From a virus: a DNA stretch of 43,245 bases. Location of the stretch: positions 1 to 43,245 of the IMG/VR virus record IMGVR_UViG_3300013307_000027. One strand, given 5' to 3'. The notes beneath the pieces are model-generated. The model was not told the origin of the DNA. It made no database searches and saw only the letters and a list, made by a program, of their open reading frames with translations. Positions within the stretch are counted from its first letter, which is position 1; every line of letters begins with the position of its first letter. Positions 44 through 43,234 of the stretch are shown here, in pieces. A program made the position numbers and the translations under genes.

Positions 44-117
44 TGGATGCCCCGTGAGGATTCGAACCTCAATTGACGGAGTCAGAGTCCGTAGTCTTAC
101 CTTTAGACGACGGGGCA
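44..117 (-). tRNA. tRNA-Gln (anticodon CTG), prophage integration site
   Basis: Read on the minus strand, the sequence folds as a tRNA. It has a 7-bp acceptor stem (TGCCCCG with CGGGGCA), a 4-bp D stem, a 5-bp anticodon stem around the loop CTCTGAC, and a T arm with loop TTCGAAT. The anticodon is CTG, so glutamine; the U1-A72 first pair is usual for tRNA-Gln. CCA is encoded at 46-44. The discriminator base is U rather than the G known from E. coli tRNA-Gln. The first 22 nucleotides (117-96) lie inside the attL core. In the lysogen the 5' part and everything upstream are therefore phage-derived, while the rest is host. Confidence 0.95.
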
Positions 118-207
118 ACAGGCCCGGGCCTCTATGCCGCAGAAATCCTAGGGTCAAGGGGCTTGGCGAGCGCACCGTGCGACGGTGCTATCGTCGCATG
201 TGCGACG
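96..207. repeat. attL: 28-bp core (96-123) and imperfect 112-bp repeat arm
   Basis: Positions 96-123 are identical to 43123-43150. The alignment continues without a gap to 207 (43234 at the right end), with about 91 of 112 positions identical by my count. The conserved blocks are the core, a 26-bp stretch around 136-160 holding the -35 box of the tRNA promoter, and the two arms of a hairpin at 177-199. The hairpin loop differs between the copies. To the left of the crossover the DNA is host tRNA; to the right it is phage. Confidence 0.9.
129..157 (-). promoter_or_regulatory. Phage-supplied promoter of tRNA-Gln
   Basis: Reading leftwards there is a -35 box TTGACC (157-152), a 17-nt spacer and a -10-like box TAGAGG (134-129), 11 nt before the tRNA 5' end. 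The copy at attR has the same -35 box, the same spacer length and TAGGGG at the -10. Conservation of the pair while neighbouring bases differ supports a real promoter. Because this copy lies inside the prophage, the host tRNA is transcribed from phage DNA in the lysogen. Confidence 0.6.
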
Positions 208-1365: not shown

Positions 1366-2670
1366 TCATCCCTGCTCCTCCAAAGCGTCGGCCGCATCGC
1401 GTTCGGCTTGGCGGGTCACCGCCAGGGCCATGCCTTCCGCCGCGATGCGAATATCGCGGGGCATGTAGGTATCGAGGATCTTCGTGGTTTCCGCGATCGA
1501 GTGGCCGCTGATCGCTGCGATCATCGGGATCGAGGCGCCGAGGTCGCGCATCCAGCACATGCCCGACCGGCGCAGGTCGCGGAATTGGATTCCGTCGTAG
1601 CGTTTGGCGAGCTGGGTAAGCCGATCGGCCTCGTCATGCTCCTGGCGCAGCGTGGCAGTCTGAGCGCGCCAGCGCAGGTCCTTGACCAAATGTACCACTA
1701 CGGCCCTGAAATCGCGCTGGAAGCGCCATTCCGGGCATTCCAGGCCGGTTTGCGGGTCGGCGATGATGTGCGTTCCGCCGACGCGGCCGCGCCGCGGCGC
1801 CGATATGGCGTTGCGCACGGCTTCGCGCGCGATCGGCGCCAGCGGGATACCGACCGGCGTATCGGTCTTTTCCTGTTCCAGGAACAAGCCGACGACGTGG
1901 CCGCGCTCGTCGCCGAGCGCGCGGCGAGCGTCTCCGCTGATATCGTCGATCCCGCGCATGGTGAAGCTGGTGACCGCGAGCAGATCGCCTTCGCGCTGCA
2001 TCGTGTAGAAGCCGAGCACGCACCCGACCGACACGTGGCGATGGCCGAGCGCCAGCGCCGTGTCGACCAGCAACGGCAGTTCGTCGCGGAGCAGGCGCCG
2101 CTTGCGCGGCTTCGGGCTGGCGACGCGCAGGTTGCGCGCGGGATGGGCGGCGATGTGCCCCTTGTCCTCCGCATACTGCATCAGCACGCCCAGCATCGCG
2201 AGCAGCTGCTTGGTGCGCGTGCGCCGGGAGTCGACTTCGAGCACTTCGACCAGGTCCAGCACCATTTGCCGGTTGAGCTGGCTGAGCAGCAGCTTGCCAT
2301 CCTGTGCCCAGGTTTCGAGCATCCGGAGATAGGAGCTGTAGTTTTTCTGCGTCGACGGCGCGGCATCGGTGAAGCCGCTCGATGTCTTATACTTGCGCAC
2401 CAATTGGCCGAACGTCTCGATCCTGTCGCTGACCGGCGCTTCGATCACGGCCTGCGCCACGGTGCCGTCGACCAGCGCGGTGCGCGCGACGCACGCGGTC
2501 ACCACAGCGCCGGCATTGGCATCGGTGCCCAGCTCGAGGTTTTGCCAGCCGAGCCGGCGCAGGCGCGGGCTGGGCTTCCAATGGCCGACCCACTCGCCGC
2601 CATTCGCCTCCCGCCATTGCCAGGAGAGATAGGTCGCGTGGACGTTGGGTTTCTTGGTGCGGGGCTTCAT
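1366..2670 (-). CDS. int: Tyrosine-recombinase integrase
   Basis: This 434-residue protein catalyses site-specific recombination between attP and the tRNA-Gln attB. The catalytic residues are visible in order: R226 (in YTMQREGD), K268, R367 in the FRDLRRSG box (R364 where many relatives have His), H390 in SGHSIAETT and the nucleophile Y402 in DTYMPRD. Residues about 85-180 look like a core-binding SAM-like domain. The N-terminal 80 residues are probably the arm-binding region. It is the last gene of the leftward operon, 32 nt below the preceding stop, so it may be co-transcribed from the repressor-controlled promoter near 8725. It ends 16 bp from the convergent acyltransferase gene. Confidence 0.95.
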   Translation of the reverse strand: MKPRTKKPNVHATYLSWQWREANGGEWVGHWKPSPRLRRLGWQNLELGTDANAGAVVTACVARTALVDGTVAQAVIEAPVSDRIETFGQLVRKYKTSSGFTDAAPSTQKNYSSYLRMLETWAQDGKLLLSQLNRQMVLDLVEVLEVDSRRTRTKQLLAMLGVLMQYAEDKGHIAAHPARNLRVASPKPRKRRLLRDELPLLVDTALALGHRHVSVGCVLGFYTMQREGDLLAVTSFTMRGIDDISGDARRALGDERGHVVGLFLEQEKTDTPVGIPLAPIAREAVRNAISAPRRGRVGGTHIIADPQTGLECPEWRFQRDFRAVVVHLVKDLRWRAQTATLRQEHDEADRLTQLAKRYDGIQFRDLRRSGMCWMRDLGASIPMIAAISGHSIAETTKILDTYMPRDIRIAAEGMALAVTRQAERDAADALEEQG

Positions 2671-3962: not shown

Positions 3963-4282
3963 TGTGTCACCATCGCCTTATTCAGCGCGGCAACGACAGA
4001 TAGATTATCCATGCGCGTCGTCTCGCGTTCGAGTGCGACGTGCAATGCCTCGATCGTATCGAAACCTGTCGGTTCCGTCGTTGCGCGATTATTGATCGCG
4101 TGGCTTATCCGGTGGTGACCATCCTCCCAGAGCTGAACCGACAGCTGGCGATAGCCCAAGGTGGCCGCATCGGGATCGGTGCGCGACCATTCGTCGACGC
4201 GACCACCTCCTGCACGGCTCGACCAAGCTTTACGGAACCCAAGCCTGCGAAGCTCGGGTGCGAAGATCTGGAACGGGCTCAT
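3959..4282 (-). CDS. Hypothetical protein
   Basis: The 107-residue product begins MSPFQIFAPELRRLGFRKAW. A longer reading frame runs upstream, but it is the shadow of the methyltransferase gene. The true start is ATG 4282, which overlaps that gene's TGA as ATGA. The protein appears soluble. Its middle (GYRQLSVQLWEDGHHRISHA) reads like paired beta strands, and the C-terminal half (HVALERETTRMDNLSVVAAL) is helical. It resembles small phage proteins found next to methyltransferases, but I cannot assign a function. Confidence 0.75.
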   Translation of the reverse strand: MSPFQIFAPELRRLGFRKAWSSRAGGGRVDEWSRTDPDAATLGYRQLSVQLWEDGHHRISHAINNRATTEPTGFDTIEALHVALERETTRMDNLSVVAALNKAMVTQ

Positions 4283-4959
4283 AGCGTTGCTCCCAAGGTG
4301 AAAAGATCGGTACCCGGCGTCACGACGCCGTCGCGTTGCAGCAGGCACCAGCGGCCCATCATCTCGGGCCGGTTGCGGTCCCACACGAACCAGCTGCAGT
4401 TCATCGTCGACTGCCCGCCGCCGGTGAAATCGACGCGCCAGGTCATGTCGTATTTGAGCGGCGGGCCATAAGCGCGGTAGCGGCCGAGCTGGCCGCGCGT
4501 GTCGGTGTCGGTCGAGAAGAAGGTGCTCTTGAGCAGCAACGCCACGTAGGGCGCTTTCAGGCGGCCGAGCAGCACGTCGAGAATGCGGCCGGCGAGCGCG
4601 AACGGCGGATTGGTCAACGGAACGCCGAGCAGCTTGAGCGCGCGCAGCACGTCGAGTTGCGCGACAGCGTTGGCGGGATCCTCCACGATGTCGGTGGCGA
4701 TCACGTCGAAGTCGAATTGCGCCAGCACGGCGGCGATGGCGCCACCCCGGCCGCAGCATTCCCACACGGGCAAGGCGTGGCGGCGGATATGCTCGCCCTC
4801 CGCGAGCAGGAAGGCGCGCGTCGCGTCGAACGGCGTCGGGTAATAGTCCGCATCGCGCCGCGCCGTCTTATCGAGATTGAGCTTGCCCTTGCCGCCCGCC
4901 ATGGCGGTGCCAAGGCCGGTTGGCTGATCGGGAGCCAGGGCGCCAAGTAGGTCGGTCAC
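4279..4959 (-). CDS. Phage DNA N6-adenine-type methyltransferase
   Basis: This 226-residue SAM-dependent methyltransferase probably modifies adenine in DNA. The catalytic tetrapeptide NPPF lies within LTNPPFALA (about residues 117-125). A SAM-binding region precedes it: VWECCGRGGAIAAVL with Gly-rich turn, then the acidic strand VIATDIVEDP. It also carries YYPTPFDATRAFL near the N-terminus, as many stand-alone phage methylases do. The start is taken as GTG 4959 because GTGA overlaps the preceding stop; ATG 4902 would give a shorter form. No restriction partner is nearby. An orphan enzyme could protect phage DNA or alter host methylation-controlled genes. Recognition sequence unknown. Confidence 0.85.
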   Translation of the reverse strand: MTDLLGALAPDQPTGLGTAMAGGKGKLNLDKTARRDADYYPTPFDATRAFLLAEGEHIRRHALPVWECCGRGGAIAAVLAQFDFDVIATDIVEDPANAVAQLDVLRALKLLGVPLTNPPFALAGRILDVLLGRLKAPYVALLLKSTFFSTDTDTRGQLGRYRAYGPPLKYDMTWRVDFTGGGQSTMNCSWFVWDRNRPEMMGRWCLLQRDGVVTPGTDLFTLGATL

Positions 4960-5153
4960 TGGTCGAGCCGGAGCGCGGCCGCGACGATATCGAGCACCAG
5001 CCACGACGGGACCAGGCAGGCCTTGCCGTCGGCGATCCGCGCCGCGAGCCCGCGGCGGTAGTCCGAACTCTCACGATCGGGAGTGGCCGTGGCCGCGTTG
5101 ATCAGCGCCATGGCGACGAACGTGCGCGCCTGTTCGATGTTCTCATCCGGCAT
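4956..5153 (-). CDS. Small hypothetical protein
   Basis: The product has 65 residues, beginning MPDENIEQARTFVAMALINA at ATG 5153, 11 nt inside the end of the upstream gene. It appears as a pair of amphipathic helices joined by a polar stretch with DRESSDYRRG, then a hydrophobic C-terminal helix (VPSWLVLDIVAAALRLD). There are no cysteine motifs or signal peptide. The reading frame extends further upstream, but that part overlaps the next gene and is proline-rich noise. Function unknown. Confidence 0.7.
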   Translation of the reverse strand: MPDENIEQARTFVAMALINAATATPDRESSDYRRGLAARIADGKACLVPSWLVLDIVAAALRLDQ

Positions 5154-5870: not shown

Positions 5871-6262
5871 GCCTCCGCTTCCTCTGCGCGCGCGTCGCGG
5901 CGGGCGAGGGTGAGCAGCCGGCCGCGAATGCTGTTTTCCTTGCGACCCAACCGGCGCGCGATCACCGAAACCCTGAACCCCTGCATATCGAGAACTCGCA
6001 GCAGCACGTCATCGTCGGCCGTGTATGGGCGAACGACGTGGCCACCGCGGCGATATGGCTCGACCGGCTGCGTGCATATGCCACGGCGCTTCGGAGTGGT
6101 GTCGGCGCCATGTTTAAGGCACTGCCATGCGATTGATCCGGGACTGACGCGCGTGCCCGCCTCCGTAAAGTGCGCGGCGATCCGTTCGACCGGCCAACCC
6201 TTCTCGCGCAGCTCGCACATTTCCTCGATCTGCGCTTCGGACAAGATGCGTGCGCCGCCCAT
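5867..6262 (-). CDS. Two-HTH DNA-binding protein, GcrA/SANT-like
   Basis: The 131-residue product has two helix-turn-helix-like segments. The first is near residues 8-45 (LSEAQIEEMCELREKGWPVE, then RIAAHF). The second is near residues 80-118 (YTADDDVLLRVLDMQGFRVS, then VIARRLGRKENSIRGRL). The second closely follows the pattern D-x2-L-x3-G-x3-IARRLGR-x2-NSI-GR found in GcrA-type regulators of alphaproteobacteria and in other HTH families. It probably binds DNA and regulates phage or host transcription. Its ATG overlaps the upstream TGA by one base (TGATG). A nearby adenine methyltransferase in the same operon is notable because host GcrA responds to adenine methylation. Confidence 0.75.
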   Translation of the reverse strand: MGGARILSEAQIEEMCELREKGWPVERIAAHFTEAGTRVSPGSIAWQCLKHGADTTPKRRGICTQPVEPYRRGGHVVRPYTADDDVLLRVLDMQGFRVSVIARRLGRKENSIRGRLLTLARRDARAEEAEA

Positions 6263-43039: not shown

Positions 43040-43122
43040 CCGTGCGACGCACCGCTGGGTTTCGTGCAAAGTCGCACAAACTCTACAGGCTAAGTCGTTG
43101 AAATCTATCACCCACAGGTAAC

Positions 43123-43234
43123 CTTACCTTTAGACGACGGGGCAACAGGCGGTGGCCCCTAAGCCGCAGAAATCCTAGGGTCAAGGGCCATCAGGACAGC
43201 GCTGTGCGACGACCTTGCCGTCGCACGTGCGACG
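43123..43234. repeat. attR: 28-bp core (43123-43150), orphan tRNA 5' end and native host promoter
   Basis: The core copies 96-123. It contains only the first 22 nucleotides of tRNA-Gln (43144-43123, minus strand), so no complete tRNA is here. The -35 box TTGACC (43184-43179) and -10-like TAGGGG (43161-43156) are the original host tRNA promoter. In the lysogen it is cut off and would transcribe leftward into the prophage. A hairpin (43204-43211 with 43219-43226) and a further GTGCGACG (43227-43234) match the copies at 177-207. Confidence 0.88.

Follow-up and report, generated by a model that had tools for sequence, protein, structure and literature searches.

On the whole, our analysis points to a phage that integrates at the 5' end of a host tRNA-Gln(CTG) gene and carries, in the P' arm of its attachment site, a promoter-like site that stands in for the original one, with a right flank that likely stems from a second prophage, whether still present or left as a remnant; we hold this model as a whole with good confidence. 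At the level of sequence comparison, it is carried by the anatomy of the attachment sites, the limits of the core, the recurrence in about ten phage lineages, the conserved arms, the promoter pattern, and the shift of the native upstream gene to the far end of the prophage in the three occupied genomes. The window, that is, the whole stretch of DNA analysed, comprises the 43,245 bases of a virus record. Its sole tRNA gene, as detected by ARAGORN, is the tRNA-Gln(CTG) gene at 44-117 on the minus strand, located at attL, with a 3' part that belongs to the host and its first 22 nt (96-117) within the core shared by both ends. A gap-free direct repeat of 117 nt with 80% identity joins 91-207 to 43118-43234 (81% by BLAST, E 5e-27), and in this way the first 22 nt of the tRNA are found again together with the upstream DNA at 43123-43234. 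This confirms the repeat of about 112 gap-free bases at about 81% that a sequence-only reading of the window had reported, and the comparison of cores together with ARAGORN likewise bears out its claim of an intact tRNA at the left with the 5' 22 nt in the core. The exact core has 28 nt, the attL copy at 96-123 being identical to the attR copy at 43123-43150 (both on the minus strand), and consists of tRNA nt 1-22, which form the stub at attR, and 6 leader nt. The identity of the repeat is uneven, with 20 of 20 positions in the 20-nt windows 101-120 and 141-160, and 11-15 of 20 in those from 151 onward, where mainly GTCGCAC motifs are in common. The record stops 11 nt beyond the right repeat, about 95 nt past the right core. 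Since the tRNA 3' part lies on the host side and the shared core is tRNA nt 1-22, the element is not of the kind that restores the 3' end; it brings the 5' part and the upstream DNA, and the tRNA stays whole. The crossover probably lies within tRNA nt 1-22, where the 7-nt D-loop (98-104) with a small dyad would be a candidate. For the 43 nt to the left of the tRNA, a good match was found in none of 50 native tRNA-Gln loci.

The element is confirmed as a phage by its head, tail and lysis families, which include head-tail adaptor, tail, virion structural and endolysin proteins. A tyrosine integrase of 434 aa (1366-2670, minus strand; phrog_1 integrase, 5.4e-26), with relatives beside tRNA-Gln 5' ends, adjoins the att site and is intact, the attL core at 96-123 lying outside the gene. 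Its residues R226, R367, R368, H390 and Y402, which we take to be the catalytic residues of a tyrosine recombinase, are among the columns invariant across eight relatives. Between attL and the integrase there is an acyltransferase gene on the plus strand (291-1349, start putative; PF01757, 3.7e-25), likely a surface-modifying cargo gene at the prophage edge. The window also has a DNA methyltransferase family match at 4279-5004 on the minus strand (phrog_799, 1.1e-27).

The origin of the DNA upstream of the tRNA is shown by a related phage, IMGVR_UViG_3300047445_000240, with an integrase 87% identical to that of the window. In this contig the core lies in the middle, and the stretch examined has no tRNA gene. 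The left arm of its attP matches the left side of the window attR and the right arm the right side of the window attL, with the attP-attL match extending through the promoter on to the arm. Therefore the DNA upstream of the window tRNA (about 118-239) derives from the phage, as the earlier reading had proposed and as this un-integrated attP (L005/L099) now supports, and a chance origin of the repeat is excluded by the near-identical attP.

Occupied host genomes give the same picture. In Stakelama pacifica DSM 25059 (G001), tRNA-Gln(CTG) comes after an integrase 46% identical to that of the window, and the stub, together with the former upstream DNA, is found 42 kb away. Two further genomes from its family, G039 and G343, likewise carry an integrase next to the 5' end of tRNA-Gln(CTG), with stub copies at 22 and 41 kb respectively. 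The gene on the far side is the upstream gene of tRNA-Gln in unoccupied loci, in 28 of 30 such loci for G001, 27 of 30 for G039, and 28 of 30 for G343, where the 30 native loci are the best tRNA-Gln matches. In Stakelama this displaced gene is divergent from the tRNA, and we take it by its sequence to be of the Ppx/GppA type. The comparison with uninfected loci that had been suggested is thus available in relatives, and places the native upstream gene at the far end of the prophage in all three occupied genomes; the synteny, along with the attP of L005/L099, well supports the claim of integration at the tRNA 5' end. As for the target itself, the tRNA-Gln gene has one match in 177 of the 183 genomes with a match, and so looks single-copy in most.

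The DNA supplied by the phage includes a promoter-like site, TTGACC-16-ATAGAG, at 130-157 on the minus strand (TTGACC at 152-157, ATAGAG at 130-135), 12 nt before the tRNA, and this site is also present in the related attP (L099). The TTGACC hexamer had been noticed correctly; the proposed 17-nt spacing with TAGRGG is the same site shifted by one base, which we read as 16 nt and ATAGAG. The attP and the synteny support the idea that the phage replaces the promoter of the tRNA and does not destroy it, as far as a promoter-like site goes. The pattern TTGACN-(16-18)-NTANNN upstream of the tRNA is found in 30 of 30 native loci and 11 of 12 phage sites (the one without the strict pattern being L111), compared with about 1% of shuffles, and also in 20 of 20 further native loci, which were hand-picked and hence non-random (9 for long matches, 11 others). 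The 12 phage sites hold two related pairs (window/L099 and L102/L103) and were cut to ten lineages for the comparison of spacers, and L076, L077, L078 and L101, coming from the same records or prophages as L107, L110, L102 and L006, were counted once. The 17-nt spacers of these ten lineages share on average 9.9 pairwise identities versus 5.5 for random sets of ten from a pool of 60, and none of 20,000 draws reached the value of the phage set. Native spacers have 5.4 identities, both with the phages and among themselves, and the spacer of G001 is an outlier among the phages (6.6/17). This likeness shows the phage promoter as a family cassette, so the earlier view of it as a copy of the host's promoter does not stand in general, yet in G001 and G039 the phage and far-side promoters are 96-98% alike. 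In these two genomes the direction of copying is not readable from such an identity. In G343, the near and far promoters are little alike beyond a 24-nt core and both keep TTGAC-16-NTA, indicating that the phage need not copy the host promoter.

Between the -35 and -10 hexamers the phages conserve a motif, approximately CCGCAGAWWTCYGC, which recurs without TTGAC upstream of a relative targeting tRNA-Gly; it may be bound by a protein of recombination or of phage regulation. Several other assignments of the motif gained no support. As an IHF site it gives similar mismatch counts in phages and natives, and as a dispersed phage operator it has 9 hits in the window when up to 3 mismatches are allowed, with 8.7 expected. 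As a general host promoter feature it was found in 0 of 8 genomes, a weak test, as the pattern also missed the phage copies of G001, G039 and G343. Three of the 50 unoccupied tRNA-Gln loci (L137, L016, L131) have phage-like spacers and no palindrome, and may be remnants or sources. Among the relatives at tRNA-Gly (G218, G087, G126) a clear TTGAC promoter was not seen before the tRNA, and G087 carries the phage spacer motif as CCGCAGATTTCCGC.

On both sides of the core the arms are conserved as well. The P' arm of the window has a half-site GTGCGAC (177-183) and a palindrome GTCGCATGTGCGAC (193-206), together 177-206, and the P arm has half-sites at 43042-43048 and 43071-43077, which are +74 and +45 from the core end, and an IHF-like site TTTCAACGACTTA at 43091-43103 on the minus strand, +19 from the core end, scored with what we assume to be the IHF consensus. 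With at most one mismatch, GTCGCAC[AG]TGCGAC precedes the tRNA by 87-89 nt in 9 of the 12 phage sites; a tenth has it at 134 nt, and this search missed variants in L112 and L115. On the P side all nine sites compared have a GTCGCA half-site 72-74 nt from the core, and six of them also have GTGCGAC at 43-45 nt; the IHF-like site begins at +19 in all nine, with at most one mismatch in eight (the shuffled mean is 0.02 of 9). The palindrome is present in phages with integrases that resemble that of the window at only 31-46%, and in none of 50 native tRNA-Gln upstream regions. Relatives at tRNA-Gly have different palindromes at the same place (GTTGGAATTCCAAC, GTCAGAATTCTGAC) and a similar P arm. 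The hairpin had been regarded as part of the host promoter design. We rejected this, as the palindrome is missing in the native loci, GTCGCAC half-sites flank the core at fixed spots on either side, and in relatives that target other tRNAs a different palindrome stands in this place. The half-sites and palindrome are instead probable arm-type sites of the integrase, and attP looks like a standard two-armed site whose P' arm contains the promoter.

The integrase family extends well beyond the window. Among 24 viral relatives a tRNA-Gln 5' site is found in nine (L099, L101, L102, L103, L107, L110, L111, L112, L115); among the remaining 15 is L108, an integrase relative which has the GTCGCAC palindrome and a half-site at 5916-6070, directly ahead of tRNA-Thr(tgt). 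By its arrangement, tRNA-Thr appears to be an additional target in the family. Integrase relatives are present in 11 of 397 family genomes, of which three are at tRNA-Gln 5' ends, three (L085, L086 and L087, in G218, G087 and G126) at tRNA-Gly, its 5' end turned to the integrase, four at tRNAs whose 3' end is turned to it, and one without a nearby tRNA. The far copies of G087 and G126 span tRNA nt 1-40, so that more than one core is in use for restoring tRNA 5' parts across the wider family. More distant relatives (L049, L051, L052, L055) are at tRNAs with the 3' end toward the integrase, and therefore one broad integrase family holds both the 5' and the 3' modes. Among annotated phages only two relatives were found, at 25-27% identity. 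Overall, 5'-end integration with a phage promoter-like site recurs in about ten lineages, phages of sphingomonad-like bacteria.

The right flank of the window needs its own discussion. A displaced promoter-like site, TTGACC-16-TTAGGG, is seen at 43157-43184 on the minus strand by comparison of hexamers and spacer, followed by a second block resembling the P' arm (43204-43233) with a half-site at 43204-43210 and a palindrome GTCGCACGTGCGAC at 43220-43233. The palindrome stands at 89 nt as on the phage side, and the spacer is identical to that of the phage, which argues that this flank is probably not a native promoter. Most likely it is the P' arm of a second related prophage in tandem, or a remnant of one. 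Against the 397 family genomes the right flank gave nothing beyond a weak 34-nt match. For comparison, six queries against the far sides of G001, G039 and G343, over about 19 kb each, turned up no integrase relative, hence no tandem prophage was seen there. On the far side of G039 (L088/L082) a single GTCGCAC half-site stands close to where the phages have theirs, and the promoter spacer is of phage type; with no second integrase within about 19 kb, this side would fit a remnant of an older integration.

The sequence-only reading took the right flank as the native host promoter, from which the phage would have copied promoter and upstream hairpin of the window's own host. The core, hexamers and spacer common to both copies agree with this, as do the 96-98% identical promoters of G001 and G039, which a capture from the host would yield. 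Nevertheless, a palindrome absent from 50 native loci and shared by phages with such distant integrases, half-sites that keep constant distances from the core on either side, and a spacer that is a feature of the phage family make a native origin unlikely and the claim most likely wrong. It may also be supposed that a misassembly joined two phage variants at the right end of the record, given a virus record with only about 95 nt beyond the right core; we find this very unlikely, as the flank is only about 80% identical to the left copy, hence no duplicate, and the exact 32-nt arm sequence has no match in the other viral contigs searched. No more probable is the thought that the likeness to a promoter is a by-product of long homology between attB and attP, the phage sequence not being maintained as a promoter: identity blocks do span from about -35 through tRNA nt 22 in G001 and G039, but in G343 hexamers and spacing are kept where homology is gone, and the pattern is retained in 11 of 12 phage sites.

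In the model that we prefer, of 5'-end integration with a phage promoter-like P' arm, the tyrosine integrase would recombine within the first 22 nt of tRNA-Gln(CTG), and attP would carry these 22 nt and a complete sigma70-type promoter-like site on the P' side. With this content, integration would leave a full tRNA gene behind the phage promoter, and the former promoter, on the 22-nt stub, would be moved to the far end of the prophage. The P' arm would act with the GTCGCAC palindrome and half-site, the P arm with the IHF-like site and two half-sites. We further infer that the phage promoter would be active in the lysogen, that the integrase would bind GTCGCAC, and that IHF would be used. Most likely the purpose is to integrate without harm, as the 5' equivalent of the common restoration of tRNA 3' ends. 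That the phage tunes the tRNA-Gln(CUG) level of the lysogen by its own promoter and to its own advantage is rather doubtful, and on tuning the sequence-only reading overstepped the evidence: the promoter belongs to the phage DNA and has a spacer specific to phages, and nine large ORFs of the window use 187 CAG versus 59 CAA for Gln, but dominance of CAG is expected anyway in GC-rich DNA, and tuning is not needed for restored expression. Likewise rather doubtful is that the P' arm is a dual-use DNA of 90 bp, both recombination half-site and tRNA promoter, coupled to the phage state, with promoters swapped by successive integrations. In that case RNA polymerase would face competition at the tRNA promoter from intasome assembly or from a phage regulator, tRNA-Gln(CUG) transcription would be coupled to the phage state, and successive integrations would exchange promoters, phage ones remaining as the host's own.

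Accounts of tRNA-targeting phages mostly explain how the 3' end is restored and assume the original promoter, and here a whole family keeps the mirror-image solution. A conserved promoter-like cassette means that the promoter of a mostly single-copy tRNA gene is exchangeable by phage turnover. It is also a warning that a "native" tRNA promoter may be a phage remnant, and a direct test of prophage control over a host tRNA becomes possible.

As far as the consulted parts of the literature go, one close comparison is with the usual 3'-end integrases, which share the tyrosine integrase, the restored tRNA and, probably, the two-armed attP (PMC8371274). However, they restore the 3' part and the original promoter stays (PMC8371274), whereas in the window both the tRNA 5' part and its promoter-like site derive from the phage; a review of archaeal tyrosine recombinases states that restored bacterial tRNA genes retain their original promoter with very few exceptions (PMC8371274). 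In the tRNA-dependent lysogeny of actinobacteriophages the phage likewise takes charge of the host tRNA at attB, but in that case a phage tRNA substitutes for the destroyed host tRNA (PMC10865867), while in the window the host tRNA stays and has its promoter replaced. Integration also rewires transcription at a tRNA gene in ICEKp1 of Klebsiella, where the host tRNA promoter drives the element integrase (PMC13023037); in the window the element promoter would drive the host tRNA. The pTN3-like integrases of Thermococcales are alike in that the elements integrate at the tRNA 5' half as attB and sever the original promoter, the restored tRNA being reportedly expressed from the element side (PMC8371274, PMC5495485). 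They are archaeal, and their attP is part of the integrase gene, so that integration splits this gene (PMC8371274, PMC5495485), unlike the whole integrase of the window and its separate bacterial-type promoter-like site in the P' arm. Among phage-related elements of Sinorhizobium meliloti, 9 of 88 match the tRNA 5' end and keep the tRNA whole; that text never uses the word promoter, nor was a promoter cassette or arm anatomy found there (PMC11476347). Our literature search, within the excerpts it covered, found no description in bacteria of a phage-carried tRNA promoter cassette in an attP arm. From the pTN3-like (PMC8371274) and Sinorhizobium meliloti (PMC11476347) cases, 5' integration is a known, uncommon kind. 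5'-end integration itself is already known and only partly documented, and the new part would be the conserved promoter cassette in the attP arm.
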